From an uncultured Clostridia bacterium (GTDB lineage: Bacteria; Bacillota; Clostridia; Oscillospirales; CAG-382), in contig CANRAV010000008.1 in assembly GCA_947628695.1 (NCBI GenBank), forward strand, positions 20,951 to 84,950: 64,000 nucleotides of DNA. Reading direction: 5' to 3'. This document shows positions 4,237-64,000 of the stretch, one piece after another (the first letter of the stretch is position 1; the number at the start of each line of letters is the position of its first letter). A program made the position numbers and the translations under genes. Below the pieces are notes generated by a model that saw only the letters and a list, made by a program, of their open reading frames with translations, had not been told where the DNA came from and did not search any database.

Positions 4237-4520
4237 CCCACCACTCACTACGTTCGCGGCGGGGGCCCCGATTTGTTTCCCCAAAAAATCTTACGATTTT
4301 TCGGGGACCCCGAATAGGCTAATAGGTTGGCTCTTGGGAAAATGCGATTTTCCCAAGAGCCTTCGGTTTATTATAGATTCCCGTTCACTCGCGTCTCGCG
4401 CCTTGCCCCCTCCGCGGGGCGGCGTCAAGGCACTCGCGGGAATCCAAGGAGAATTTTCCGCGGTACGTGCCCGCGGAAAATTCAAGTTTTATTGTATGCT
4501 CGCTTCGCTCGCGGGGCGGG
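4237..4520 (+). repeat. Family A palindromic repeat, copy A1
   Basis: Intergenic composite of consecutive palindromes. First comes a CCCCAAAAAATC...GATTTTTCGGGG hairpin. Then GGCTCTTGGGAAAA...TTTTCCCAAGAGCC, then an arm GATTCCCG pairing with CGGGAATC around a GC-rich core. Next is GAATTTTCCGCGG...CCGCGGAAAATTC, and finally GCTCGCTTCGCTCGC. The same order recurs at 12074, 47564, 58525 and 63488. No transposase is present, so it resembles a MITE/REP-like non-autonomous element. Confidence 0.85.
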
Positions 4521-4552
4521 AAGCGCGGCGCGGTACAATAGATGAAAGGCTT

Positions 4553-4575
4553 CATACGTGCGACCGGCCTAATTA
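4553..4575 (+). repeat. Family B repeat, truncated left end only
   Basis: CATACGTGCGACCGGCCTAA matches the left end of the full family B elements (for example at 7524), then the match stops. It lies between A1 and the hicAB promoter, indicating that repeats have been pieced together here. Confidence 0.6.
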
Positions 4576-4618
4576 TCGCTGCGTCGCTGCCTTCGTTGCC
4601 TTTTGGAAAAAACATCCA

Positions 4619-4647
4619 TTGACAAATACACACAAAGTGTGTATAAT
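4619..4647 (+). promoter_or_regulatory. hicAB promoter with palindromic operator
   Basis: TTGACA (4619-4624), a 17-base spacer and TATAAT (4642-4647) form a consensus sigma-A promoter. The spacer holds an inverted repeat TACACAC-AAA-GTGTGTA overlapping the -10 element. Such a site is a natural operator for the ribbon-helix-helix domain of HicB, giving autorepression. The operator role is inference; the palindrome is visible. Confidence 0.85.
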
Positions 4648-4670
4648 AGTATTGTTCGGGAGGACAGGTG

Positions 4671-4844
4671 ATGAAGACAAAAGACTTAATAAAGCTTTTG
4701 GAGAAAAACGGGTGGAAATTCGTACGTCACGGCGCAAATCACGACGTGTACGCCAAGGGGAAGGAAATAGAGGCAGTCGTCAGGCACAAAGAGATGGACG
4801 AAAGGCTGGCGCAGGCCATTATTAAACGCAGAGGCCTGAAATAG
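4671..4844 (+). CDS. hicA: HicA-type mRNA interferase toxin
   Basis: This 57-residue ORF is below the track cutoff. It has the HicA fold pattern: KDLIKLLEKNGWKFVRHGANHDVY, with the catalytic histidine in the HGxNHDxY motif, then AVVRHKEMDERLAQAIIKRRG. HicA toxins bind and cleave mRNA. The ATG is 7 bases after GGGAGG. The stop is 19 bases before hicB, whose product should neutralise it. Transcription should come from the operator-bearing promoter just upstream. The gene looks intact. Confidence 0.92.
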   Translation: MKTKDLIKLLEKNGWKFVRHGANHDVYAKGKEIEAVVRHKEMDERLAQAIIKRRGLK

Positions 4845-4863
4845 GCACGCGGGAGGTAAATTT

Positions 4864-5256
4864 ATGAAATACGCATATCCGATAATTTTAAGCAAGGGGA
4901 AAACAAGCGTGGTGGTCTACGTGCCGGATTTCGATATAAACACGGAAGGAGCCGACTACGCGGACGCGATAGAGATGGCGCGGGATGCCATAGGCATTGT
5001 CGGCATAGAGCTTCAGGACAGGGGGGAAAGCCTGCCCGTGCCCACGCCTGCGGGCGACGTAAAGGCGGAGGACGAAGGCGACATTGTGTCGCTTGTGGAC
5101 GTTGACTTTGCGGAATACCGTCGGCAAAATGCACAGCGCGCTGTACGCCGCAACGTAACGCTGCCGTCTTGGTTGGATTACGAGGCGGAGAAAAGCGGGA
5201 TAAACGTCTCTGCCGTCCTGCAAAAGGCGCTGAAGGAAGAACTTAGCTTGAGATAA
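4864..5256 (+). CDS. hicB: HicB-type antitoxin
   Basis: The 130-residue protein has an N-terminal HicB-like domain (YVPDFDINTEGADYADAIEM, about 18-37) that binds HicA. The C-terminal part NVTLPSWLDYEAEKSGINVS resembles a ribbon-helix-helix DNA-binding domain. It should neutralise HicA and repress the shared promoter through the TACACAC/GTGTGTA palindrome. The start ATG follows GGGAGGT. A second, closely similar HicB lies at 46715 without a HicA partner. A GC hairpin plus T-run terminator follows directly. Confidence 0.93.
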   Translation: MKYAYPIILSKGKTSVVVYVPDFDINTEGADYADAIEMARDAIGIVGIELQDRGESLPVPTPAGDVKAEDEGDIVSLVDVDFAEYRRQNAQRAVRRNVTLPSWLDYEAEKSGINVSAVLQKALKEELSLR

Positions 5257-5261
5257 GAATT

Positions 5262-5284
5262 GCGGAAAAAGCTTCCGCTTTTTT
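5262..5284 (+). terminator. Rho-independent terminator after hicB
   Basis: GCGGAA-AAAGC-TTCCGC stem followed by TTTTTT, starting 5 bases after the hicB stop. Confidence 0.85.
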
Positions 5285-5341
5285 CTTAAAAATACCATCC
5301 GCGCTGCGGACACCGCACTTCTTCACTCGCCGCCGGCGCAA

Positions 5342-5568
5342 CATACGTGCAGCAGGCCTAAACACAGTGAAAGCACCGCCTGCGTTGGCGGCTCGGGATT
5401 CCAAAGGGCTGTGCCCTTTGGGCCTAAAAAGCTATTGTTTTAAATAAGCCTTAAATAGAGAGCCATGAAGGGACCGAGTCCCTTCATATAAAAACACAGG
5501 CCGAGCGCGAGCTCGGCCAAGATAAAAAACAAAAAAGCGAAAAAGCGAGGCCGAGCGTGAGCTCGGCC
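5342..5568 (+). repeat. Family B palindromic repeat, copy B1
   Basis: Starts with CATACGTGC and contains three hairpins in order: CCAAAGGG/CCCTTTGG, TGAAGGGAC/GTCCCTTCA and GGCCGAGC/GCTCGGCC. The last hairpin is present twice here (5499-5518 and 5549-5568). Other copies are at 7524, 10619, 25352, 46457, 53398 and 54214. It sits immediately 3' of the first LRR/dockerin gene and may serve as its terminator. Confidence 0.87.
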
Positions 5569-7437: not shown

Positions 7438-7462
7438 GAAACCGCTTGAAAGCGAAGCTTGA

Positions 7463-7505
7463 AGTAATAGGTAATAAGTAATAGTGAATAAGTGTCTTCA
7501 CTCGC
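7463..7505 (+). repeat. Family C repeat (TAATAGTGAATAAGTG)
   Basis: AATAGGTAATAAGTAATAGT plus GAATAAGTG is a short AT-rich element that recurs near 25553, 25630, 50341, 55750 and 55925, often as facing inverted halves. Here it abuts the left end of B2. Its function is unknown. Confidence 0.6.
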
Positions 7506-7523
7506 CGCTTCGCGTCGGCGCTC

Positions 7524-7702
7524 CATACGTGCGACCGGCCTTTACACGGCGCAGGCGCGGCCTGCGTTGCCAGCTCGGGATTCCAAAGGGTGCCAACCCT
7601 TTGGCTCTAAAAAGCTATGTTTTTCTATAAACTTAACCCAAAACAGCCATGAAGGGACCGAGTCCCTTCATATAAAAACCAAGGCCGAGCGTGAGCTCGG
7701 CC
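7524..7702 (+). repeat. Family B palindromic repeat, copy B2
   Basis: Same order as B1: CATACGTGCGACCGGCC, the hairpin CCAAAGGGTTGG-type (here CCAAAGGGTGCCAACCCTTT), then TGAAGGGAC/GTCCCTTCA, then GGCCGAGC/GCTCGGCC. It lies 3' of the second LRR/dockerin gene. Confidence 0.87.
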
Positions 7703-7745
7703 ATAATAATATAAATAAATCAATAATAAATAATCAAAGCAAAGG

Positions 7746-9989: not shown

Positions 9990-10210
9990 TTTTCGGTACC
10001 TCCGTTTTTTATTTTGTCCATCGACAGCGCGATGGAATCGAGCTGAAGCAAAGCGGTTTTTATGCTTCCGATTCAATTATACATCAAAAAAAAAAAAAAC
10101 AACAACATTAAATCAAAAAAAACATTAAAAAAGTAAGAAAAAGGCAAAGACTTGTTTTCTTTATCAAGCCCGCACGGTCTGCGCCTTTCGGGAAAAACGG
10201 TAAAAAACTA

Positions 10211-10239
10211 TTGACAAATTGCCCGGACGGGTATATAAT
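10211..10239 (+). promoter_or_regulatory. Antitoxin RNA promoter, locus 1
   Basis: TTGACA (10211-10216), 17-base spacer and TATAAT (10234-10239). The spacer holds CCCG-GA-CGGG, a small inverted repeat. Confidence 0.88.
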
Positions 10240-10245
10240 GCAAGT

Positions 10246-10348
10246 AGAAAAAGGGCGTGGCCGATAAGCGGTTGACCCCAACTGTTGGTTTACCTACTCA
10301 AAAGAGCAGGCGACCGCCGCTGTCGGAATCAGTGGCGGTCATTTTTTT
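10246..10348 (+). ncRNA. Antisense antitoxin RNA, locus 1
   Basis: Predicted RNA of about 100 nt from the consensus promoter to a terminator hairpin GACCGCCGCTG/CAGTGGCGGTC (10312-10340) plus seven T. The 5' part reads GGGCGTGGCCGATAAGCGG. A middle hairpin CCTACTC/GAGCAGG precedes the terminator. The RNA converges on the small toxin gene and covers its stop codon and 3' UTR, the usual geometry of type I antitoxins such as RatA. The same RNA recurs at loci 2, 3a, 3b and (truncated) 4. Confidence 0.82.
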
Positions 10349-10431
10349 CGATTGTTGTGCTTGAAACACAAGTCGATAACCGAAAGTATGATTGCAACGA
10401 AGCCGAAAAAGACCTCATATGTAATGTACAT
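10339..10431 (-). CDS. Small hydrophobic type I toxin, locus 1
   Basis: A 30-codon ORF, far below the track cutoff: MYITYEVFFGFVAIILSVID then a basic tail ending NNRKK. It has one transmembrane helix, an acidic residue near the start and a positive C-terminus, like holin-like/TxpA-type membrane toxins. The ATG follows AAAGGAGGT with ideal spacing. Its own promoter lies at 10559-10532. The stop TGA is the first part of the antitoxin terminator stem. Family assignment is inference; the peptide, promoter and ribosome site are visible. Paralogous loci are at 47306 and 53886. Confidence 0.82.
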   Translation of the reverse strand: MYITYEVFFGFVAIILSVIDLCFKHNNRKK

Positions 10432-10531
10432 ACGACTACCTCCTTTCCTCGCCAAACAAGCGAAAGCTTGATGCTTTGAAAAGAAGGAGCCAACCGCCTA
10501 CCGTTATGGTCAACGCCCTGATTCTAATTTT

Positions 10532-10559
10532 ATTATACAACAAAATTATAATTTGTCAA
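10532..10559 (-). promoter_or_regulatory. Toxin promoter, locus 1
   Basis: Minus strand TTGACA (10559-10554), 16-base spacer, TATAAT (10537-10532). The ~100-nt leader contains GGTAGGCGGTTGGCTCC and a hairpin just before the ribosome site. Confidence 0.87.
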
Positions 10560-10569
10560 CACAAAAACG

Positions 10570-10607
10570 TCGCCGCGCAAGTAAGCCTGCGCGGCGATTT
10601 TGCTTTT
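10570..10607. terminator. Hairpin bounding the toxin module, locus 1
   Basis: TCGCCGCGCA-N8-TGCGCGGCGA followed by TTTTGCTTTT on the plus strand. The same hairpin lies immediately upstream of the toxin promoter at loci 2 and 3, so it is a conserved boundary of the module. Confidence 0.8.
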
Positions 10608-10618
10608 ATTGTGCGCTC

Positions 10619-10795
10619 CATACGTGCGATAAACCTAAACATCAATGCGGCGCAGCCTGCGTTGGCGGCTCGGGATTCCAAAGGGCTGTGCCCTTTGGGC
10701 CTAAAAAGCTATTGTTTTAAATAAGCCTAATTTAGAGAGCCATGAAGGGACCGAGTCCCTTCATATAAAGACACAGGCCGAGCCGGGGCTCGGCC
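10619..10795 (+). repeat. Family B palindromic repeat, copy B3
   Basis: CATACGTGCGATAAACC, CCAAAGGG/CCCTTTGG, TGAAGGGAC/GTCCCTTCA and a variant last hairpin GGCCGAGCC-GG-GGCTCGGCC. It separates TA locus 1 from the third LRR/dockerin gene and lies 3' of that gene. Confidence 0.86.
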
Positions 10796-10827
10796 ATAAT
10801 AATAAAATCAATAATAAAGCACAAATC

Positions 10828-12039: not shown

Positions 12040-12073
12040 GACAAACTTTCGAAGGGCGCAGCCCGCCCAAAAC

Positions 12074-12358
12074 TGCGAGCGAAGCGAGCATATAACAATT
12101 ACGAAAAATCCGGCGACAGGTGCGCCGGATTTTTCTCCTTGGATTCCCGCGAGTGCCTACCACTCACCCCTGCGGGGCGGGGGGTAGGCGCGAGGCGCGA
12201 GCGAACGGGAATCTATAATGACTGAAGGCTCTTGGAAAAGCCGCGCTTTTCCAAGAGCCAACCTATTAGCTAAACCGGGGTCCCCGCCGCGAACGTAGTG
12301 AGTGGTGGGGATTAAAATCGGGGGTACCCCCGAAAAGCCGCAAGGCTTTTTGGGGGAT
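12074..12358 (-). repeat. Family A palindromic repeat, copy A2 (inverted)
   Basis: Reverse orientation of A1. Hairpins include GGCTCTTGGAAAAG/CTTTTCCAAGAGCC and AAAAGCC-GCAA-GGCTTTT. GAAAAATCCGGCG/CGCCGGATTTTTC replaces the usual GAATTTTCCGCGG stem. It fills the space between an LRR gene and the 3' end of asnA. Confidence 0.85.
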
Positions 12359-25319: not shown

Positions 25320-25351
25320 TTGGATTATTATTTCATATTGTATTTGATTAT

Positions 25352-25530
25352 GGCCGAGCTCGCGCTCGGCCTTGGCTTTTTTTACGGAGGGACTCGGTCC
25401 CTCCGTGGCTCTCTAAATAAGGCTTTTTTAACAACATAGCTTTTTATGCCCAAAGGGTTGGCACCCTTTGGAATCCCGAGCTGGCAACGCAGGCCGCGCC
25501 TGCGCCGTGTAAAGGTCGGCCGCACGTATG
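25352..25530 (-). repeat. Family B palindromic repeat, copy B4 (inverted)
   Basis: Begins GGCCGAGCTCGCGCTCGGCC followed by a T-rich run, 33 bases after valS, so it can act as the valS terminator. The middle hairpin is CGGAGGGAC/GTCCCTCCG, where other copies have TGAAGGGAC/GTCCCTTCA; both arms changed together. It ends CACGTATG. Confidence 0.86.
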
Positions 25531-25544
25531 AAACGCCGGCGCGG

Positions 25545-25712
25545 CGAAGTAATATGTAATAGGTAATAGTGAAAAAGTGCGGTGCCCGCTGCGCGGGCGT
25601 TATTTATTAATAATAAAGAAGTGAAGCAGTCTCGCTGCTTCACTACCGCACTTCTTCACTATTCACTCTTACTTCTTCACTAAATCCTCGCTCTTACTTT
25701 TTCACTAAATCC
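25545..25712. repeat. Family C repeats, facing copies
   Basis: TAATAGGTAATAGTGAAAAA plus GTGCGG on the left faces CCGCACTTCTTCACTATTCA on the right, with an internal GAAGTGAAGCAG/CTGCTTCAC hairpin. The right part continues as a 26-base direct repeat (CTTACTTCTTCACTAAATCC) whose second copy forms the last codons of the fic gene. Confidence 0.65.
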
Positions 25713-36227: not shown

Positions 36228-36256
36228 TTGACTTATACACCCATTGAGTGTATAAT
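36228..36256 (+). promoter_or_regulatory. Promoter and palindromic operator of AbiE-like pair
   Basis: TTGACT (36228-36233), 17-base spacer, TATAAT (36251-36256). TATACAC-N7-GTGTATA spans the spacer and the -10, a likely operator for the HTH protein encoded next. Confidence 0.83.
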
Positions 36257-36274
36257 ATAAGCGAGGTGAGAAAA

Positions 36275-36925
36275 ATGACGCTTCGTGAAATGCGCAAAAG
36301 CCTTGGAGACACGCAAAGCGAGTTTGCAGCACGCTACAACATACCGTTCCGCACAGTTCAGAACTGGGAGTCCGGCCAGCGCAAGCCGCCGGAATATGTG
36401 CTAAGCCTTTTGGAGGCACGCATACGCCGCGATTTGGTAAATCGCAGAACGGCGGTGTTGCCGAAGTACGACCCGCACAAGGGCGACCTTCCGAGAAGGC
36501 GCGACTACGTCGGCGCTTTTGGGTGGCTTCGCGCAGTCCGCGACCGCTTAGGTGGAGACGTGGTTTTTGCGCTGGATGAAGCGCTTATGTGCGAAGGGCT
36601 GTTCAGCGGACGAAGCGACGAGTATATCGTTTGGGCATACGGCAGCGACAAGGTCAATCGGTTCAACGGCGCCGCACTGCTCGGCGACAGCGTAAGCCCA
36701 CACAGCGTAAAGGAGAGAGACGGCGTTTTGTATACCGACTTCAACCGCACGCTGGCGGACTCTTTTGCCAACGAGGCGATACTGGACATGCAGGGGATAA
36801 CGGAGGCTGTCGGTAAGTACTACTTTAAGCACGGAGAAAGCTTTGACGGCATATCCGTTGCGCCGCAGTACCAGGACAGGTTTGATATATTGGCAAGGGA
36901 AGCGGCCGATTACTACGGCAGCTGA
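36275..36925 (+). CDS. HTH-domain protein, probable antitoxin of AbiE-like pair
   Basis: The start is ATG 36275 after GAGGTGAG; the track start at 36248 lies within the operator. The 216-residue protein has an N-terminal XRE-like helix-turn-helix (about 5-50, DTQSEFAARYNIPFRTVQNW) and a C-terminal domain of unknown fold with no recognised motif. It precedes an AbiEii-type nucleotidyltransferase by 11 bases, so by analogy with abiEi/abiEii it should be the antitoxin and autorepressor. This role is inferred from order, the HTH and the palindrome in the promoter. It is not a recognisable classical AbiEi. Confidence 0.72.
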   Translation: MTLREMRKSLGDTQSEFAARYNIPFRTVQNWESGQRKPPEYVLSLLEARIRRDLVNRRTAVLPKYDPHKGDLPRRRDYVGAFGWLRAVRDRLGGDVVFALDEALMCEGLFSGRSDEYIVWAYGSDKVNRFNGAALLGDSVSPHSVKERDGVLYTDFNRTLADSFANEAILDMQGITEAVGKYYFKHGESFDGISVAPQYQDRFDILAREAADYYGS

Positions 36926-36936
36926 GAGGTGGGCTT

Positions 36937-37671
36937 ATGAGCATAACAGCAGAGGAAAGGCTGATGTACAGCGTTATGAAGGCCGTTTACGACGGCGGTA
37001 TTCCCATAAGCTTCAAGGGCTCTATGGTGCTTAAGGCTTGCCTGCTTGAAGCGGGCTGCACAGAGGAAACGCGTCACACTGTTGACATCGACGCAAACTG
37101 GAACACCCTTTCTACGCCGACGGGTAAGCAGATGGAGCAGTCGTTCGAGAAGGCACTTCAAAAGAGCGGGATCGACCTGGATGTACGGCTTTACAGAATG
37201 TACGGCGAAGGCCGCTCTGCCGGATTTGAGCTTGTTGACAGGGCGACCGGGGAGATTTTGTTTACTATGGATGTTGACGTAAACCGTCCCGCCGTACCCA
37301 CAAGAATATACGAAGTAGAAGGTTTTCGCTTCCGCGGTGCCGTTCCCGCACAGATGATTGCCGACAAGCTTGCGACGGTTTCTACGGAAAAGGTTTTTCG
37401 AAGGATCAAAGACGTTGTAGACTTGTACTATTTGTCGAAAACAATCCCCTGCGACCGTGCGGCGGTGGAGAGCGCGCTGGCAAACAGCAAGAGAACGCTT
37501 GGCGATTTTTCGGACTTTTTGCATAGAACCGAGGAGCTGCGCCACGCCTACGAAAAGTTCCGCTTTGAAGGAGGCGTCGGCAAGCCAAGCTTTGAGACCG
37601 TTTACGACGGGGCGTTGTCGTATATACGCGGCTTTGCGGCGTATATAGAGAAGCAAAAATCGGAGGAGTGA
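36937..37671 (+). CDS. AbiEii-type nucleotidyltransferase toxin
   Basis: The 244-residue protein resembles the nucleotidyltransferase AbiEii/AbiGii family, toxins of type IV-like TA and phage-abortive systems. ISFKGSMVLKACL corresponds to the FKGGTAL motif, and RHTVDIDANW to the R.S.DIDL metal-binding aspartates. A later MDVDV may supply the third acidic residue. QMIADKLATVSTEKVFRRIKDVVDLYYL is the family's KL/R.KD.xDL segment. The start follows GAGAGGTGGG. The pair has its own promoter and a strong terminator, so it is a self-contained module. Confidence 0.85.
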   Translation: MSITAEERLMYSVMKAVYDGGIPISFKGSMVLKACLLEAGCTEETRHTVDIDANWNTLSTPTGKQMEQSFEKALQKSGIDLDVRLYRMYGEGRSAGFELVDRATGEILFTMDVDVNRPAVPTRIYEVEGFRFRGAVPAQMIADKLATVSTEKVFRRIKDVVDLYYLSKTIPCDRAAVESALANSKRTLGDFSDFLHRTEELRHAYEKFRFEGGVGKPSFETVYDGALSYIRGFAAYIEKQKSEE

Positions 37672-46435: not shown

Positions 46436-46456
46436 TTTTTTTGGTTTTGTTTTTGT

Positions 46457-46639
46457 GGACGGGCTTTTCGCCCGTCCTTGGTTTTTATTATGAAGGGACT
46501 CGGTCCCTTCATGGCTGTTTTGGGTTAAGTTTACAGAAAAACACAGCTTTTTAGAGCCAAAGGGTTGGCACCCTTTGGAATCCCGAGCCGGCAACGCAGG
46601 CAGCGCTTTCACTGTGTTTAGGTCGGCTGCACGTATAAA
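46457..46639 (-). repeat. Family B palindromic repeat, copy B5 (inverted)
   Basis: Starts with GGACGGGC-TTTT-CGCCCGTCC, a stem unlike the usual GGCCGAGC one but in the same place. TGAAGGGAC/GTCCCTTCA, CCAAAGGG/CCCTTTGG and the CACGTATAA end follow. It lies between tmcAL and the orphan hicB. Confidence 0.85.
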
Positions 46640-46714: not shown

Positions 46715-47107
46715 ATGAAAAATTCATATCCTATCGTTTTAACGCCTGAGAAAAAGGGCTTTACCGTCTATATCCCCGACTTTGACATAAACACGGAGGG
46801 CGACGATATGACGGAGGCTATAGAAATGGCACGCGACGCCATAGGACTTATGGGCATTGATATTGAGGACGACGGAAACGCTCTGCCAAATCCGCGGGCA
46901 CTTCGGGACGTGCAGGCGGCAGAGGGCGCTGTCGTCTCTCTCGTGGATGTCGACTTTGCGGAATATCGCCGCAAAAATGAAATGAGAACTGTCAAGAAAA
47001 ATTGCACCCTGCCCGGCTGGCTTTGCTATGAGGCCGAAAAAGCAAATATAAACTTCTCACAGGCTTTGCAAGCCGCACTAAAGCGCGAGCTTCACATAAC
47101 AGACTGA
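46715..47107 (+). CDS. Orphan HicB-type antitoxin/regulator
   Basis: The 130-residue protein is same-length and collinear with HicB at 4864 (shared blocks: DFDINTEG, EAIEMARDAIG, VVSLVDVDFAEYRR, YEAEK). It keeps both the HicA-binding half and the C-terminal ribbon-helix-helix-like half (NCTLPGWLCYEAEKANINFS). No hicA lies upstream, where only 22 bases separate -10 and ATG, or downstream. It may be a leftover regulator that still represses its own promoter. The type I toxin promoter 90 bases downstream has a related palindrome. Confidence 0.88.
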   Translation: MKNSYPIVLTPEKKGFTVYIPDFDINTEGDDMTEAIEMARDAIGLMGIDIEDDGNALPNPRALRDVQAAEGAVVSLVDVDFAEYRRKNEMRTVKKNCTLPGWLCYEAEKANINFSQALQAALKRELHITD

Positions 47108-47157
47108 TAACGGTGTACAGGCTGACTGCTCGCATGTGACGCCGGATAACACAAAAA

Positions 47158-47190
47158 TCGCCGCGCAGTTTTTCTTGCGCGGCGACATTT
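47158..47190. terminator. Hairpin between hicB and type I TA locus 2
   Basis: TCGCCGCGCA-N8-TGCGCGGCGA then CATTTCT. It can terminate hicB and is the same boundary hairpin seen at TA loci 1 and 3. Confidence 0.8.
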
Positions 47191-47193
47191 CTA

Positions 47194-47221
47194 TTGACAA
47201 AATTCGCTAAAAGCGTATAAT
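47194..47221 (+). promoter_or_regulatory. Toxin promoter, locus 2
   Basis: TTGACA (47194-47199), 16-base spacer, TATAAT (47216-47221). The spacer has CGCT-AAA-AGCG. Confidence 0.87.
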
Positions 47222-47305
47222 ATTTTCGAAGGGCGTTATAGCCATAACGGTAGGCGGTTGGCTCCTCCTTTCTCGCTTTCTAAGCGAGGGGAAGGAGGGA
47301 TGCCG

Positions 47306-47404
47306 ATGTTTTTTGATTCATTTGAATCGATTTTCGTGCTTATAAGCATGATATGCGACCTTATACAATTGGTCGTTACAATCGTAAAAATGCGCAAAAA
47401 ATGA
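47306..47404 (+). CDS. Small hydrophobic type I toxin, locus 2
   Basis: A 32-codon ORF: MFFDSFESIFVLISMICDLI then a Val-rich helix and VKMRKK. It has one transmembrane helix, acidic residues at the start and a basic end. The second of two nearby ATGs is chosen because AAGGAGGG lies 7 bases before it, whereas the first ATG is too close. The leader hairpin CCTCCTT...GAAGGAGG masks that ribosome site. The stop TGA begins the antitoxin terminator stem. Holin-like/TxpA-type membrane toxins are the nearest known concept; no experimental relative is claimed. Confidence 0.83.
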   Translation: MFFDSFESIFVLISMICDLIQLVVTIVKMRKK

Positions 47405-47497
47405 CCGCCACTGGACTCAACAGCGGCGGTCGCCTGCTCTTTTGAGTAGGTAGCGTCTAAATTTGGGGCCAACCGCTTATCGGCGGCGCCCTTTACT
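47395..47497 (-). ncRNA. Antisense antitoxin RNA, locus 2
   Basis: Minus-strand RNA of about 100 nt. 5' part: GGGCGCCGCCGATAAGCGG then TTGGCCCC. A CCTACTC/GAGCAGG hairpin follows, then terminator GACCGCCGCTG/CAGTGGCGGTC and ATTTTTTGCG. It converges on and overlaps the toxin stop codon and 3' UTR. Its near-identity in structure with the RNAs at 10246, 53644 and 53797 supports one RNA family. Confidence 0.84.
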
Positions 47498-47503
47498 GTT
47501 TGT

Positions 47504-47532
47504 ATTATATACCTAACAAGAGAATTTGTCAA
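47504..47532 (-). promoter_or_regulatory. Antitoxin RNA promoter, locus 2
   Basis: Minus strand TTGACA (47532-47527), 17-base spacer, TATAAT (47509-47504). Confidence 0.88.
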
Positions 47533-47563
47533 GTGTTTTTACAAAAATGCCTCGTCACAAAAC

Positions 47564-47801
47564 CGCGAGCGAAGCGAGCATACAATCAAACTTGAATTTT
47601 CCGCGGGCATGTACCGCGGAAAATTCTCCTTGGATTCCCGCGAGTGCCTACCCCCACCCTCGCGGGGTGGGGGCAGGCGCGAGACGCGAGTGAACGGGAA
47701 TCTATAATAAACCGAAGGCTCTTGAGAAAGCCGCGCTTTCTCAAGAGCCAACCTTTTAGTCTTAACAGGGGCCCCCGTAAAGCCGTAAGGCTTTATGGGG
47801 A
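47564..47801 (-). repeat. Family A palindromic repeat, copy A3 (inverted)
   Basis: Contains GAATTTTCCGCGG/CCGCGGAAAATTC, the GATTCCCG/CGGGAATC arms, GGCTCTTGAGAAAG/CTTTCTCAAGAGCC and TAAAGCC-GTAA-GGCTTTA. It lies between the locus 2 antitoxin promoter and the 3' end of the SDR gene. Confidence 0.86.
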
Positions 47802-47805
47802 ATTT

Positions 47806-48519
47806 TTATGTCCATCCGCCGTTAACATCCACTGTCGCTCCTGTGATGTACGAAGCCGCGTCCGACGCCAAAAACCACGCCGCCTCCGCCACGTCGCGAG
47901 GCGTGCCGAGCCGCTCCATCGGTATTTCGTCCACTATAGCGGAGATGTCCTCCGCAGAGAGGCTTGCGTTCATATCCGTGTCAATAATCCCGGGGGCGAT
48001 GCAGTTGACGCGCACGCCGCAGAAGCCCGCCTCCTTGGCAAGCGCCTTGGTAAGGCCTATGACGGCGGCCTTTGCGGCGGAATAGTCCGCCTCGCAGGAG
48101 GCGCCGACCTCGCCCCAAACGGAGGAGATGTTGATTATGCAGCCGCCCTTGCGGCTTATCATCCCGGGCAGGAAGGCGCGGCAGCAGTTAAGGGTGCCGA
48201 ACAGGTTCACGTCGTACATAGCACGCGCGTCCTCAGGCTTTATGTCCTGAAACAGCCCGAAAAGAGCCCTTCCCGCGTTGTTTATAAGCACGTCGGGGAA
48301 TAGGCCGTCGGCCTCTATGGCGTTTCGCATGGCAAGGACCTGCGCACTGTCGGCAACGTCGGCGCGGTAAAGCGCGCAGCCCGTCTTCTGCCGAAGCGCC
48401 TCTGCCGCCTCTGCGCTTGAATTGTAGTTTGCAAGCACTCTCCAACCGCGTTCGGCAAACAGCGCGGCGCAGCCCGCGCCTATCCCGCGGGAGGCACCTG
48501 TTATCAGAACCGTTTTCAT
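47806..48519 (-). CDS. Short-chain dehydrogenase/reductase (FabG-like)
   Basis: The 237-residue NAD(P)-dependent oxidoreductase has the Rossmann motif TGASRGIGAG, NNAG at about 87, the catalytic serine in INISSVWGEVG and YSAAKAA (Tyr-Lys). The C-terminal YITGATVDVNGGWT is typical of FabG-like 3-oxoacyl-ACP reductases. Without fab neighbours the substrate is open. The start overlaps the RNase J stop by 4 bases, so they are co-transcribed. A3 touches its 3' end. Confidence 0.9.
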   Translation of the reverse strand: MKTVLITGASRGIGAGCAALFAERGWRVLANYNSSAEAAEALRQKTGCALYRADVADSAQVLAMRNAIEADGLFPDVLINNAGRALFGLFQDIKPEDARAMYDVNLFGTLNCCRAFLPGMISRKGGCIINISSVWGEVGASCEADYSAAKAAVIGLTKALAKEAGFCGVRVNCIAPGIIDTDMNASLSAEDISAIVDEIPMERLGTPRDVAEAAWFLASDAASYITGATVDVNGGWT

Positions 48520-50340: not shown

Positions 50341-50418
50341 AAGTAATAGGTAACAGGTAATAGTGAATAAGTGCGGAAGAAAAAGCTTCACTCTTCACTA
50401 TTACCTCTTCACTAAGCC
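50341..50418. repeat. Family C repeat, facing copies
   Basis: AAGTAATAGGTAACAGGTAA and TAGTGAATAAGTGCGG face TTCACTCTTCACTATTACCT. It forms an imperfect inverted repeat inside the rnj leader. Confidence 0.65.
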
Positions 50419-53386: not shown

Positions 53387-53397
53387 GTTTATTATTT

Positions 53398-53574
53398 GGC
53401 CGAGCTCACGCTCGGCCTTGGTTTTTAATGAAGGGACTCGGTCCCTTCATGGCTCTCTAATTAAGGCTTATTAAAGACAATAGCTTTTTAGAGCCAAAGG
53501 GTTGGCACCCTTTGGAAACCCAATTTGGCAACGCAGGCTGCGCTTAAGCCGTGTAAGGGCCGTCTGCACGTATG
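53398..53574 (-). repeat. Family B palindromic repeat, copy B6 (inverted)
   Basis: GGCCGAGCTCACGCTCGGCC, TGAAGGGAC/GTCCCTTCA, CCAAAGGG/CCCTTTGG and end CACGTATG. It follows capA by 11 bases. With B7 at 54214 it frames TA locus 3 as an inverted pair. Confidence 0.87.
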
Positions 53575-53608
53575 AGGTGCGGGTGCTTTTTGGAAAATAT
53601 AAAAAAGC

Positions 53609-53637
53609 TTGACAAATTGCTTTGCAAAGTATATAAT
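53609..53637 (+). promoter_or_regulatory. Antitoxin RNA promoter, locus 3 copy a
   Basis: TTGACA (53609-53614), 17-base spacer, TATAAT (53632-53637). The spacer holds the perfect palindrome CTTTGCAAAG. Confidence 0.87.
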
Positions 53638-53643
53638 ATAGTC

Positions 53644-53743
53644 GAAGGGCAAAGCCGATATGCGGTTAGCTCCAATATGTAGTTTTACCTACCTTAAAAA
53701 GTAGGCGACCGCTGCTGCCGGAACAGTGGCGGTCATTTTTTGC
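53644..53743 (+). ncRNA. Antisense-type antitoxin RNA, locus 3 copy a
   Basis: Same RNA family: GGGCAAAGCCGATATGCGG then TTAGCTCC, hairpin CCTAC/GTAGG, terminator GACCGCTGCTG/CAGTGGCGGTC (53707-53734) and ATTTTTTGCG. It is the outer of two tandem copies and does not itself overlap the toxin gene, so it would act in trans unless transcription reads through. Confidence 0.78.
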
Positions 53744-53761
53744 GAAAAATATTAAAAAAGC

Positions 53762-53790
53762 TTGACAAATTGCTTTGCCAAGTATATAAT
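53762..53790 (+). promoter_or_regulatory. Antitoxin RNA promoter, locus 3 copy b
   Basis: TTGACA (53762-53767), 17-base spacer, TATAAT (53785-53790). It differs from copy a by one base in the spacer palindrome (CTTTGCCAAG). Confidence 0.87.
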
Positions 53791-53796
53791 ATAGTC

Positions 53797-53896
53797 GAAG
53801 GGCAGAGCCGATATGCGGTTAGCTCCTGCATAGCTAATTACCTACTAAAATAAGTAGGCGACCGCTGCTGCTGGAACAGTGGCGGTCATTTTTTCC
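53797..53896 (+). ncRNA. Antisense antitoxin RNA, locus 3 copy b
   Basis: GGGCAGAGCCGATATGCGG then TTAGCTCC, hairpin CCTACT/AGTAGG, terminator GACCGCTGCTG/CAGTGGCGGTC (53860-53887) and ATTTTTTCC. It directly converges on the toxin gene and covers its ancestral stop codon. Confidence 0.82.
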
Positions 53897-54022
53897 GTAA
53901 GCTCATAATTGCTATTATAAGGCTTGCAATGCTTGTGATCAGGCCTAAAAGGCTGATTATAACATTAAAAGGCTGATTATAACATTAAAGAAGCCAAAAA
54001 AAGCGTCATATGTGACAAACAT
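53886..54022 (-). pseudogene. Type I toxin gene broken by a 20-bp tandem duplication
   Basis: From ATG 54022 (after AAGGAGGTGGAG) the peptide reads MFVTYDAFFGFFNVIISLL and then hits TAA at 53957-53959 after two more codons. The cause is a perfect tandem duplication of AAAAGGCTGATTATAACATT (53947-53966 and 53967-53986), which shifts the frame. Removing one copy restores a 38-residue peptide ending SLRKK that stops in the antitoxin terminator stem, exactly like loci 1 and 2. Promoter and ribosome site are intact, so only a 21-residue peptide would now be made. Confidence 0.85.
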
Positions 54023-54128
54023 CCTCTCCACCTCCTTCCTTCGCTTGGAAAGCGAGTTCGGATGCACCGTAAGGCGCATCAAGGCGGAGCTAACCGCACA
54101 CCGATATGGCCGTGCCCTTCTTACGTAC

Positions 54129-54156
54129 ATTATACACCTTTAGCGAAATTTGTCAA
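54129..54156 (-). promoter_or_regulatory. Toxin promoter, locus 3
   Basis: Minus strand TTGACA (54156-54151), 16-base spacer, TATAAT (54134-54129). The sequence CGCTAAAGGTGTATAAT resembles the locus 2 toxin promoter. Confidence 0.85.
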
Positions 54157-54164
54157 TATAAATG

Positions 54165-54200
54165 TTGCCGCGCAAGAAAACAGCGCGGCAATTTTTATTT
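54165..54200. terminator. Hairpin bounding the toxin module, locus 3
   Basis: TTGCCGCGC-N9-GCGCGGCAA followed by TTTTTATTTT on plus, directly upstream of the toxin promoter. Confidence 0.8.
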
Positions 54201-54213
54201 TCATCCCACACCT

Positions 54214-54390
54214 CATACGTGTGACTGGCCTATACATGGCTGAAACGCAGCCTGCGTTGCCAAATTGGGTTTCCAAAGGGCTGTGCCCTTTGGGCCTAAA
54301 AAGCTATGTTGTTCAATAAGCCTAATTCAGAGAGCCATGAAGGGACAAAAGTCCCTTCATTAAAAACCAAGGCCGAGCGTGAGCTCGGCC
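54214..54390 (+). repeat. Family B palindromic repeat, copy B7
   Basis: CATACGTGTGACTGGCC, CCAAAGGG/CCCTTTGG, TGAAGGGAC-AAAA-GTCCCTTCA and GGCCGAGC/GCTCGGCC. It forms the right side of the inverted pair around TA locus 3. Confidence 0.87.
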
Positions 54391-54480
54391 ACAAAAATAA
54401 AAGCCATAAAAATAAAAGCGCAAAGAAGTGCATACAAATCCCCAAACCGGCGTAGAATTAAAAAAACGGAGGGGCAAGCG

Positions 54481-55714: not shown

Positions 55715-55749
55715 ACCGTTGTATCACTATCGCTAAGCTTCGCTTAGAG

Positions 55750-55975
55750 TGAATAGGTAATAAGTAATAGTGAAGAAGTGCGGAAGAAAAAGCTACGCTT
55801 TTTCGACATTATATTATATATTGTTTAATATAAATCAAAGCTTTATCTGATTGACGATGTGCTTGCCTTTGAGGCTTTAGCCGCAAATCAGCACCCGCAT
55901 ATTTAAATGAAATACCGTCCGCGCAGCGGACTCCGCACTTATTCACTTTTCACTATTACTTCTTCACTTCGCCCC
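55750..55975. repeat. Family C inverted pair enclosing AT-rich segment
   Basis: GTAATAGTGAAGAAGTGCGG on the left faces CCGCACTTATTCACTTTTCA continuing CTATTACTTC on the right. About 150 bases of AT-rich DNA without an ORF lie between them. The layout looks MITE-like. It occupies most of the gap between dacF and pgi. Confidence 0.65.
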
Positions 55976-58524: not shown

Positions 58525-59045
58525 CCATTGCTCGCTTGCGCTCGCAACGGGGGCCCCGGTTTAGGCTAAAAGGTTGGCACTTGAGAAAACGCAGTTTTCT
58601 CAAGTGCCTTCGGTTTATTATAGATTCCCGTTCACTCGCGCCTGCGGTGTTTCCCCCAAAAACCTGACGGTTTTCGGGGGTGCCCCCGATTTGTTTCCCC
58701 AAAAAATCTTACGATTTTTCGGGGACCCCTTTAACTTTTCCCATAAAGCCTTACGGCTTTACGGGGACCCCGGTTTAGACTAATAGGTTGGCTCTTGAGG
58801 AAACGCAGTTTTCTCAAGAGCCTTCAGTTATTATAGATTCCCGTTCACTCGCGTCTCGCGCCTACCCCCACCCCGCGGGGGTGAGGGGTAGGCACTCGCG
58901 GGAATCCAAGGAGAATTTTCCGCGGCACCTGTCCGCGGAAAATTCGTTATTTGATTGTATGCTCGCTTCGCTCGCGTCTTTTGCGGCTTCGCCGCTGTTC
59001 GCTTCGCTCGCGGGATTGCGGCTTCGCCGCCGTTCGCGGGGCGGG
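58525..59045 (+). repeat. Family A palindromic repeats, copy A4 (two nested units)
   Basis: The first unit has GGCACTTGAGAAAA/TTTTCTCAAGTGCC and breaks off into chained hairpins AAAACC-TGAC-GGTTTT, AAAATC-TTAC-GATTTT and AAAGCC-TTAC-GGCTTT, separated by GGGG/CCCC runs. The second unit is complete: GGCTCTTGAGGAAA/TTTTCTCAAGAGCC, the GATTCCCG/CGGGAATC arms and GAATTTTCCGCGG/CCGCGGAAAATTC. A tail of TTCGCTTCGCTCGCGG-like repeats follows. Confidence 0.85.
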
Positions 59046-63487: not shown

Positions 63488-63822
63488 AATCCCCCAAAAA
63501 CCTGACGGTTTTCGGGGGTACCCCCGATTGATTTTCCCCCAAAAATCTGACGATTTTCGGGGGACCCCCATTATGACTAATAGGTTGGCACTTGAGAAAA
63601 CGCGGTTTTCTCAAGTGCCTTCGGCTTATTATAGATTCCCGTTCGCTCGCGCCTCGCGCCTACCCCCACCCCGCGGGGGTGAGTGTAGGCACTCGCGGGA
63701 ATCCAAGGAGAATTTTCCGCGGTACATGCCCGCGGAAAATTCGTTATTTATTATATGCTCGCTTCGCTCGCGGTTTTAGGCGACTCCGTCGCTGTTCGCT
63801 TCGCTCGCGGGCGGGACGGGAA
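63488..63822 (+). repeat. Family A palindromic repeat, copy A5
   Basis: Chained hairpins AAAACC-TGAC-GGTTTT and AAAATC-TGAC-GATTTT, then GGCACTTGAGAAAA/TTTTCTCAAGTGCC, the GATTCCCG/CGGGAATC arms, GAATTTTCCGCGG/CCGCGGAAAATTC and the GCTCGCTTCGCTCGCGG tail. Confidence 0.86.
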
Positions 63823-63837
63823 TTTTTGTTAAAAAGC

Positions 63838-63866
63838 TTGACAAATTGCGCGGGCGGGTATATAAT
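63838..63866 (+). promoter_or_regulatory. Antitoxin RNA promoter, locus 4
   Basis: TTGACA (63838-63843), 17-base spacer, TATAAT (63861-63866). Confidence 0.85.
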
Positions 63867-63871
63867 ACTAA

Positions 63872-63923
63872 TAGTAAAGGGCGCCGCCGATAAGCGGTTG
63901 ACCCCAAGTTTAGAAGTTACCTA
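63872..63923 (+). ncRNA. Truncated antitoxin RNA, locus 4
   Basis: The 5' half of the antitoxin RNA (GGGCGCCGCCGATAAGCGG, TTGACCCC, TTACCTA) is present. It is then replaced at 63924 by a copy of the A5 tail, so hairpin 2 and the terminator are missing within the window. Confidence 0.65.
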
Positions 63924-64000
63924 ATTTATTATATGCTCGCTTCGCTCGCGGTTTTAGGCGACTCCGTCGCTGTTCGCTTCGCTCGCGGGCGGGACGGGAA
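63924..64000 (+). repeat. 77-bp direct repeat of A5 tail at window end
   Basis: Identical to 63746-63822 at an offset of 178 bases; it runs to the last base of the window. It could be a tandem duplication or a contig-end artefact. Confidence 0.75.

Follow-up and report, generated by a model that had tools for sequence, protein, structure and literature searches.

Many known type I toxin-antitoxin (TA) systems are carried by plasmids or prophages, and intergenic elements such as BOX, BIME/REP and miniature inverted-repeat transposable elements (MITEs) are modular and palindromic, occur in ordered combinations and are restricted to particular lineages. In par of pAD1 (Fst), convergent promoters flank a small hydrophobic peptide with a charged C-terminus, a shared bidirectional terminator forms the antisense overlap, and the ribosome site of the toxin mRNA lies in a hairpin (PMC7472228). 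The LDR loci of E. coli (ldr/rdl) are cited in PMC7472228 as type I TA loci that form multi-copy intergenic repeats, and the type I TA loci of Clostridioides difficile stand consistently next to CRISPR arrays (PMC6563280). Our literature search found no paper joining type I TA with intergenic repeats or with MITE passengers. Here we describe par-like type I TA modules joined through a spacer of their own to a chromosomal repeat, B, often with a second repeat, A, on the other side. Four type I loci lie in a stretch of 64,000 nucleotides (the window; positions 20951-84950 of contig CANRAV010000008.1, C8, whose end is the last base of the window) from a draft metagenome-assembled genome (MAG) of an uncultured gut Clostridia bacterium (1.97 Mb in 38 contigs, named here by C-numbers).

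Whole-genome searches were supplemented by targeted loci and by selected stretches that total 824 kb, or 42% of the genome. Gene calls were home-made, and profiles for both repeats and for the type I antitoxin were built from sequences of this same genome. Relatives comprised 19 genomes for repeat B, six of them from the same genus, and for the antitoxin six same-genus genomes and others of 63 family genomes; absence in relatives means that a sequence was undetected by blastn or nhmmer.

Repeat B covers 193 profile positions and consists of three perfect or near-perfect hairpins (CCAAAGGGC..GCCCTTTGG, TGAAGGGAC..GTCCCTTCA and the GGCCGAGC/GGACGGGC palindrome), while repeat A, with 258 profile positions, is a longer string of palindromes forming multiple hairpins. 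Fragments included, the profiles matched 85 times for B and 58 times for A, inside the window and far outside it; of B, no fewer than 63 copies in the MAG are near-complete, and A occupies about 35 loci. A covariance model of the antitoxin returned 28 matches, which represent 25 distinct type I loci. In nineteen of these 25 a B follows downstream, on the same strand; not one locus has an inverted B as its nearest downstream copy, and two more have A only. In 17 loci the toxin leader and B are set 50-76 bp apart, and this interval consists of a conserved hairpin (CCGCCGCGCAAG..CTTGCGCGGC) and a spacer of one of two kinds (TTTATCCCGCGC or TTTGGGAAGCGTTGGCACATTTGCACC). A model of this hairpin-spacer segment matched at 20 TA loci and nowhere else in the examined sequence, so that not a single TA-free B copy there has the segment beside it. 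The 20 spacer-bearing loci run directly into B in 17 cases and into a B stub of 15-20 bp in one (C1:53221); in the remaining two an insert intervenes between spacer and B, namely other repeats at C5:55835 and an orphan hicB at locus 2 of the window. The two intact TA loci without A or B (C5:65162 and C23:550) also lack the hairpin-spacer segment. A TA module and its A, where there is one, share a strand, with A upstream at a distance of 11-96 bp; in several TA-B units the far side of TA lacks an A. Since order, strand and spacing are fixed, and since the spacer is private to TA loci and missing from those free of A and B, TA, hairpin and B are one composite unit, not independent neighbours or the product of chance nesting.

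A sequence-only reading of the window had proposed that TA loci are consistently nested in palindromic repeats, which may be insertion hot spots or vehicles that carry addictive modules. For the type I loci the association exceeds chance, the strong evidence being the fixed order, strand and spacing and the private spacer. As that reading had it, locus 1 leads into a B (from 10613), locus 3 is flanked by B copies in inverted orientation, and locus 2 lies together with the orphan hicB between a B and an A. Locus 4 does adjoin A as described; its antitoxin is truncated at the contig end, it is bracketed by two identical 75-bp copies of the A tail, and the contig ends inside this repeat (63748-64000), an arrangement that may be an assembly edge effect. 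Contrary to the refuting pattern named in that reading, type I TA is enriched beside A and B; in line with it, the repeats are also common beside ordinary genes.

Each type I module has two convergent, sigma-70-like promoters, one at each end, and one shared terminator hairpin, with a predicted antitoxin RNA of about 100 nt and a predicted toxin mRNA of about 215 nt. The toxin open reading frame (ORF) encodes a hydrophobic peptide of 30-38 amino acids with a C-terminal KK, RK or similar, and at most loci it ends inside the antitoxin terminator. The 3' ends of the two RNAs overlap, with 48 nt of perfect antisense at locus 2; a strong hairpin is predicted over the toxin ribosome site, and the 5' leaders of toxin and antitoxin are alike in the same sense, as an inverted repeat in the DNA. 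By its sequence, the combination of a small hydrophobic peptide ORF and an overlapping antisense RNA gene marks these loci as putative type I TA systems. They have the convergent promoters and shared bidirectional terminator of Fst/par, and no DRa/DRb direct repeats pairing the two RNAs were found in them. The antitoxin 5' half was considered as a par-like pairing arm and rejected, its pairing with the toxin leader being no better than shuffled. The best peptide scored 21.4 bits (2.2e-4) against Hol_Tox (PF16935), below the gathering cut-off of 23.3 bits, and another scored 13.6; at gathering score, Rfam matched only two tRNAs in the window, with three TA loci nowhere near the cut-off. Extra antitoxin copies were seen at C5:55607 and C5:65312, besides the tandem duplication at locus 3, where the region with the duplicated antitoxin and the broken toxin ORF spans 53587-54025 of the window. 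At C1:143909-144053 and downstream, an antitoxin gene is interrupted by an apparent insertion sequence with an ISL3-like transposase, as judged by eye.

The covariance model gave 0-4 matches per same-genus genome (n = 6) and 0-2 elsewhere in the family genomes. Some same-genus genomes have the same TA architecture at low copy, with another peptide (MDYLIALIIILVLLNEFQGKKK) and without A or B. In two of them, G003 and G005, type I TA lies near a different palindromic repeat, of which a single 7.4-kb contig of G005 carries three to four copies close to the one type I locus of that genome; the numbers are tiny, and the pattern may hint at a wider habit of such modules. When 85,462 species genomes were scanned for the pattern of the terminator motif, a single further record contained it, that of G005.

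Repeat B was undetected in all 19 relatives, the six same-genus genomes included, and repeat A has only a distant likeness in one same-genus genome. Of 51 right ends of B, 44 point towards a gene's 3' end, with the stop codon mostly 2-45 bp away. A systematic sample of intergenic gaps of at least 120 bp, the basis of all gap-level counts here, comprised 43 convergent gaps, of which 31 contain B, 114 tandem gaps, of which 26 do, and 52 divergent gaps, of which one does. The neighbours of B are mostly ordinary genes, met at their stop codons, and for about 18% of all genes A or B is no more than 500 bp away. From the gene side, B shows GC hairpins with T runs behind them, and so resembles a portable gene-end terminator. 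As close neighbours, A and B stand on the same strand in the order A then B, with one exception, a half B that follows A directly in inverted orientation at C16:32291. Twelve A-B pairs, the one at hicAB with its B stub among them, are separated only by a linker of 28-34 bp; in other pairs the slot between A and B is occupied by a type I TA module. The 63 near-complete B copies comprise 38 alone, 8 in empty A-B pairs and 17 linked to TA, and A-TA combinations and A alone were found as well. Several B copies, in the window and outside it, end at the stop codons of BspA-type LRR genes. A third short repeat, C (AAGTAATAGTGAATAAGTGCGGAAGAAAAAGCTTCC...), occurs in the window at 7462-7494, 25547-25579, 50341-50373 and 55748-55780; it has at least 13 matches in the examined sequence and lies within 400 bp of 6 of the 28 antitoxin matches.

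Taken together, these results are probably best explained by an A-TA-hairpin-B composite with a terminator-like B that has been copied to about 20 places in the species, with A and B as the ordered parts of a mosaic repeat that is intergenic and lineage-specific. The left end of B would have acquired a type I TA of the convergent, par-like kind together with its own hairpin spacer, frequently with an A beyond it, and the resulting A-TA-hairpin-B or TA-hairpin-B unit would then have been copied to about 20 sites. Of the possible routes of spread we favour exchange among the scattered A/B copies, by recombination or conversion; the chief alternative is mobilisation in trans by a transposase. We infer further that B may act as a terminator, shielding the toxin promoter from the neighbouring gene, and that repression of the toxin may come from two features, the antisense overlap where the RNAs share a terminator and the hairpin over the toxin's ribosome site. 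The TA module would make loss of its site costly, to the mutual benefit of B and TA, and hicAB and hicB may have been added later, each between a stub of B and a full copy. That the mosaic repeat has captured the type I TA as a built-in part, and spreads it in some 20 joined copies as a terminator-plus-addiction cassette, is a tentative proposal; if it is true, the genome would pay for purging the repeat, whose hairpins would keep the toxin promoter from affecting neighbouring genes. The earlier suggestion of vehicles carrying addictive modules thus fits type I loci well, where TA, hairpin spacer and B form one unit, often with A opposite.

Several points weigh against this explanation. The evidence comes from a single MAG, 87% complete, with contigs that break at repeats, and we considered an assembly or binning artefact, a notion that fits locus 4, at its contig end between identical 75-bp copies; it is very improbable in view of at least 17 independent TA-B junctions that lie inside contigs, are flanked by ordinary genes and have diverged in sequence (mean pairwise differences of about 26-30%). 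In gap counts, 11 of 13 TA-bearing gaps hold A or B against 61 of 209 gaps (P = 3e-5). Tandem gaps give 5 of 5 against 28 of 114 (P = 7e-4), and convergent gaps alone 6 of 8 against 32 of 43 (P = 0.67); the last comparison is not significant because A and B occupy most convergent gaps. Gap co-occurrence alone would therefore overstate the link, and it is the structural evidence that carries the case. TA loci and repeats might, on these convergent-gap figures, simply gather in the same tolerant convergent or gene-end gaps without forming a physical unit, as might also be read from the 5 of 10 type II/IV TA-like loci that are repeat-free. Such a shared niche is quite unlikely given the tandem-gap excess, an invariant strand and order (in 19 of 19 TA-B pairs and every A-TA pair), and the 50-76 bp spacing in 17 loci, and it is already largely refuted by the spacer that only TA loci carry and that A/B-free TA loci lack.

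There is contrary evidence on the route of spread as well. No target-site duplication was found around B, where flanking direct repeats are no commoner than after shuffling, and no Y1 transposase (PF01797) matched in this 87% complete genome, whereas positive controls did match; movement as a discrete element would thus be conjectural, and Y1/RAYT mobilisation was rejected on the lack of PF01797 matches. The same two negatives bear on a classical non-autonomous, MITE-like transposon that is moved by a transposase in trans and carries TA as a passenger, which would account for multi-copy, lineage-restricted, sharp-ended, palindromic modules in intergenic positions. This seems unlikely to us, as no terminal inverted repeats were seen linking the left end of A with the right end of B, and as the modules occur in many partial combinations. 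Pairwise distances correlate between TA and spacer (r = 0.30, P = 0.004) and weakly between TA and B (r = 0.19, P = 0.02), whereas those of TA and A are uncorrelated (n = 8); A histories thus differ from TA histories, and amplification as one rigid block is ruled out. The pattern is as expected under recombinational exchange of modules. It also suits a history in which TA arose once beside B and was copied by homologous recombination or gene conversion alone, A and B being sedentary, as do the position of TA, always exactly at the A/B junction, and the antitoxin tandem duplications at three loci. We regard this as a possibility to be taken seriously, if a somewhat doubtful one: some TA-B units have no A opposite, so that two-sided homology would not always have been on hand.

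The link to repeats does not extend to TA systems in general. Only two hicB genes were found in the genome, and both lie between a short B left-end stub and a full B. HicA and HicB domains are encoded in one operon at 4671-5256, as in type II HicAB systems, and the order there is A, linker, B positions 3-54, hicAB, further repeats and full B, which agrees with the earlier placement of hicAB between A plus a partial B and a full B. Composite 2 has the order A, TA, spacer, degenerate B left end, hicB (in the opposite direction) and full B, with the degenerate stub at the position expected after the spacer. These two cases lend some support to the insertion hot spots of the sequence-only reading, but most B copies are without TA. 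An orphan relB (PF04221), with no toxin seen alongside, lies between inverted B copies at C16:41083-41394. For fic and mazF, B is nearby only in its ordinary gene-end position; fic does abut B, as had been noted, by the neighbouring gene's stop codon, as happens genome-wide. The dinJ-yafQ, relB-DUF2442, phd-parE, MNT-HepT and AbiE-like loci lie at least 2.3 kb from any A or B, and for the AbiE-like pair (36248-37671; PF08843), correctly described as repeat-free, the distance is at least 8.8 kb. Five of the ten type II/IV TA-like loci in the sample are thus free of A and B, and with fic and mazF in an ordinary B setting a general nesting of TA in repeats is rejected. Bracketing on both sides within about 500 bp, seen in three of ten or eleven type II/IV loci against 2.1% of genes, is suggestive, the numbers being small and the loci partly found by looking between repeats; overall, the A/B link for these systems is weak. 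One YoeB-type toxin match was also obtained, its position not located.

Empty sites were sought in same-genus genomes. On the hicAB side, A, B and TA were missing beside the flanking gene in 6 of 6 genomes, and on the locus 3 side in 5 of 5 genomes with the flanking gene, except for weak sub-A palindromes. Because gene order beyond the flanking gene is unconserved, insertion points are unreadable in these genomes. The features of the window are collected in Table 1; between 5600 and 12039 it also holds four consecutive BspA-type LRR genes, three of them with dockerin domains.

Table 1. Repeats, TA genes and linking segments in the window, in window coordinates.
Feature	Position	Strand	Evidence
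Repeat A, copy A1; extra palindromes upstream from 4236	4267..4516	+	nhmmer 4.5e-78
A-to-B linker, as in empty A-B pairs (GGCGCGGTACAATAGATGAAAGGC type)	4517..4548	+	junction listing, 28-34 bp in 12 pairs
B left-end stub, profile positions 3-54	4549..4600	+	nhmmer 1.3e-7; 0/500 shuffles reach local alignment
hicA toxin gene	4671..4844	+	PF07927 39.5 bits, cut-off 27
hicB antitoxin gene	4864..5256	+	PF15919 38.7 bits, cut-off 27
Repeat B, full; extra GGCCGAGC palindrome to 5568	5336..5526	+	nhmmer 3.6e-54
Repeat B, solo, beside BspA-LRR/dockerin gene	7518..7710	+	B profile
Locus 1 antitoxin RNA gene, promoter to shared terminator	10204..10347	+	antitoxin model 4e-35; R1 4.3e-25
Locus 1 toxin ORF MYITYEVFFGFVAIILSVIDLCFKHNNRKK	10339..10431	-	ORF ends in shared terminator
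Locus 1 toxin mRNA promoter/leader, homologous to antitoxin 5' half	10478..10559	-	antitoxin model, opposite strand
TA-specific hairpin and spacer, locus 1 to B	10565..10612	+	spacer model
Repeat B of composite 1	10613..10804	+	nhmmer 1.7e-58
Repeat A, without B or TA downstream	12067..12321	-	A profile
Repeat B between 3' ends of 877-aa gene and fic, ordinary setting	25345..25536	-	B profile
Repeat B of composite 2	46449..46639	-	nhmmer 6.1e-49
Orphan hicB inserted in composite 2	46715..47107	+	PF15919 41.7 bits
Degenerate B left-end stub beside hicB	47111..47136	-	19/26 identical; 12/500 shuffles reach it, weak alone
TA-specific hairpin and spacer, composite 2	47147..47189	-	spacer model 7.3e-11
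Locus 2 toxin mRNA promoter and leader	47192..47279	+	antitoxin model, opposite strand
Locus 2 toxin ORF MPMFFDSFESIFVLISMICDLIQLVVTIVKMRKK	47300..47404	+	sequence; 48-nt antisense overlap
Locus 2 antitoxin RNA gene	47396..47539	-	antitoxin model; R1 1.2e-26
Repeat A of composite 2	47558..47809	-	nhmmer 1.7e-81
Repeat B, inverted, left of locus 3	53390..53579	-	B profile
Locus 3 antitoxin RNA gene, copy a of 153-bp tandem duplication	53602..53741	+	antitoxin model
Locus 3 antitoxin RNA gene, copy b	53755..53894	+	antitoxin model
Locus 3 toxin ORF, broken by 20-bp tandem duplication (53946-53989)	53895..54025	-	sequence
Locus 3 toxin leader with TA-specific hairpin and spacer	54077..54208	-	antitoxin and spacer models
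Repeat B of composite 3	54211..54399	+	B profile
Repeat A with further partial A units from 58548, without B or TA	58732..58981	+	A profile
Repeat A of composite 4	63523..63779	+	A profile
Locus 4 antitoxin, truncated at contig end	63831..63925	+	antitoxin model

These results bear on how small type I TA modules increase in number and are maintained on chromosomes. In one species, about 20 copies join a TA module through a diagnostic spacer to a chromosomal gene-end repeat, of which plain, empty and filled versions coexist, so that by comparing strains one can test directly how a non-coding repeat captures, spreads and retains an addiction module.

Compared with known systems, the modules share with Fst/par the convergent promoters, the hydrophobic peptide with a charged tail, the overlap at a shared terminator and the hairpin over the ribosome site; they differ in leaders that are alike in the same sense, where par has direct repeats (PMC7472228), in peptides that are not Fst-like, one being near Pfam Hol_Tox, and in their roughly 25 copies per genome. 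Like REP/BIME (PMC2817692), A and B are modular, palindromic, intergenic, arranged in ordered combinations and restricted to a lineage; unlike those elements and MITEs, they show no Y1/RAYT or duplication footprint in our searches, and their slot carries a TA module. The multi-copy intergenic type I TA of LDR, as cited in PMC7472228, is a further parallel, with the difference that there the TA locus is itself the repeat, whereas here it is joined to a separate repeat that is roughly three times commoner. As in C. difficile (PMC6563280), clostridial convergent type I TA modules stand consistently beside a repeat feature; in our case that neighbour is a gene-end hairpin repeat and not a CRISPR array, and the linkage takes the form of a conserved, joined unit.
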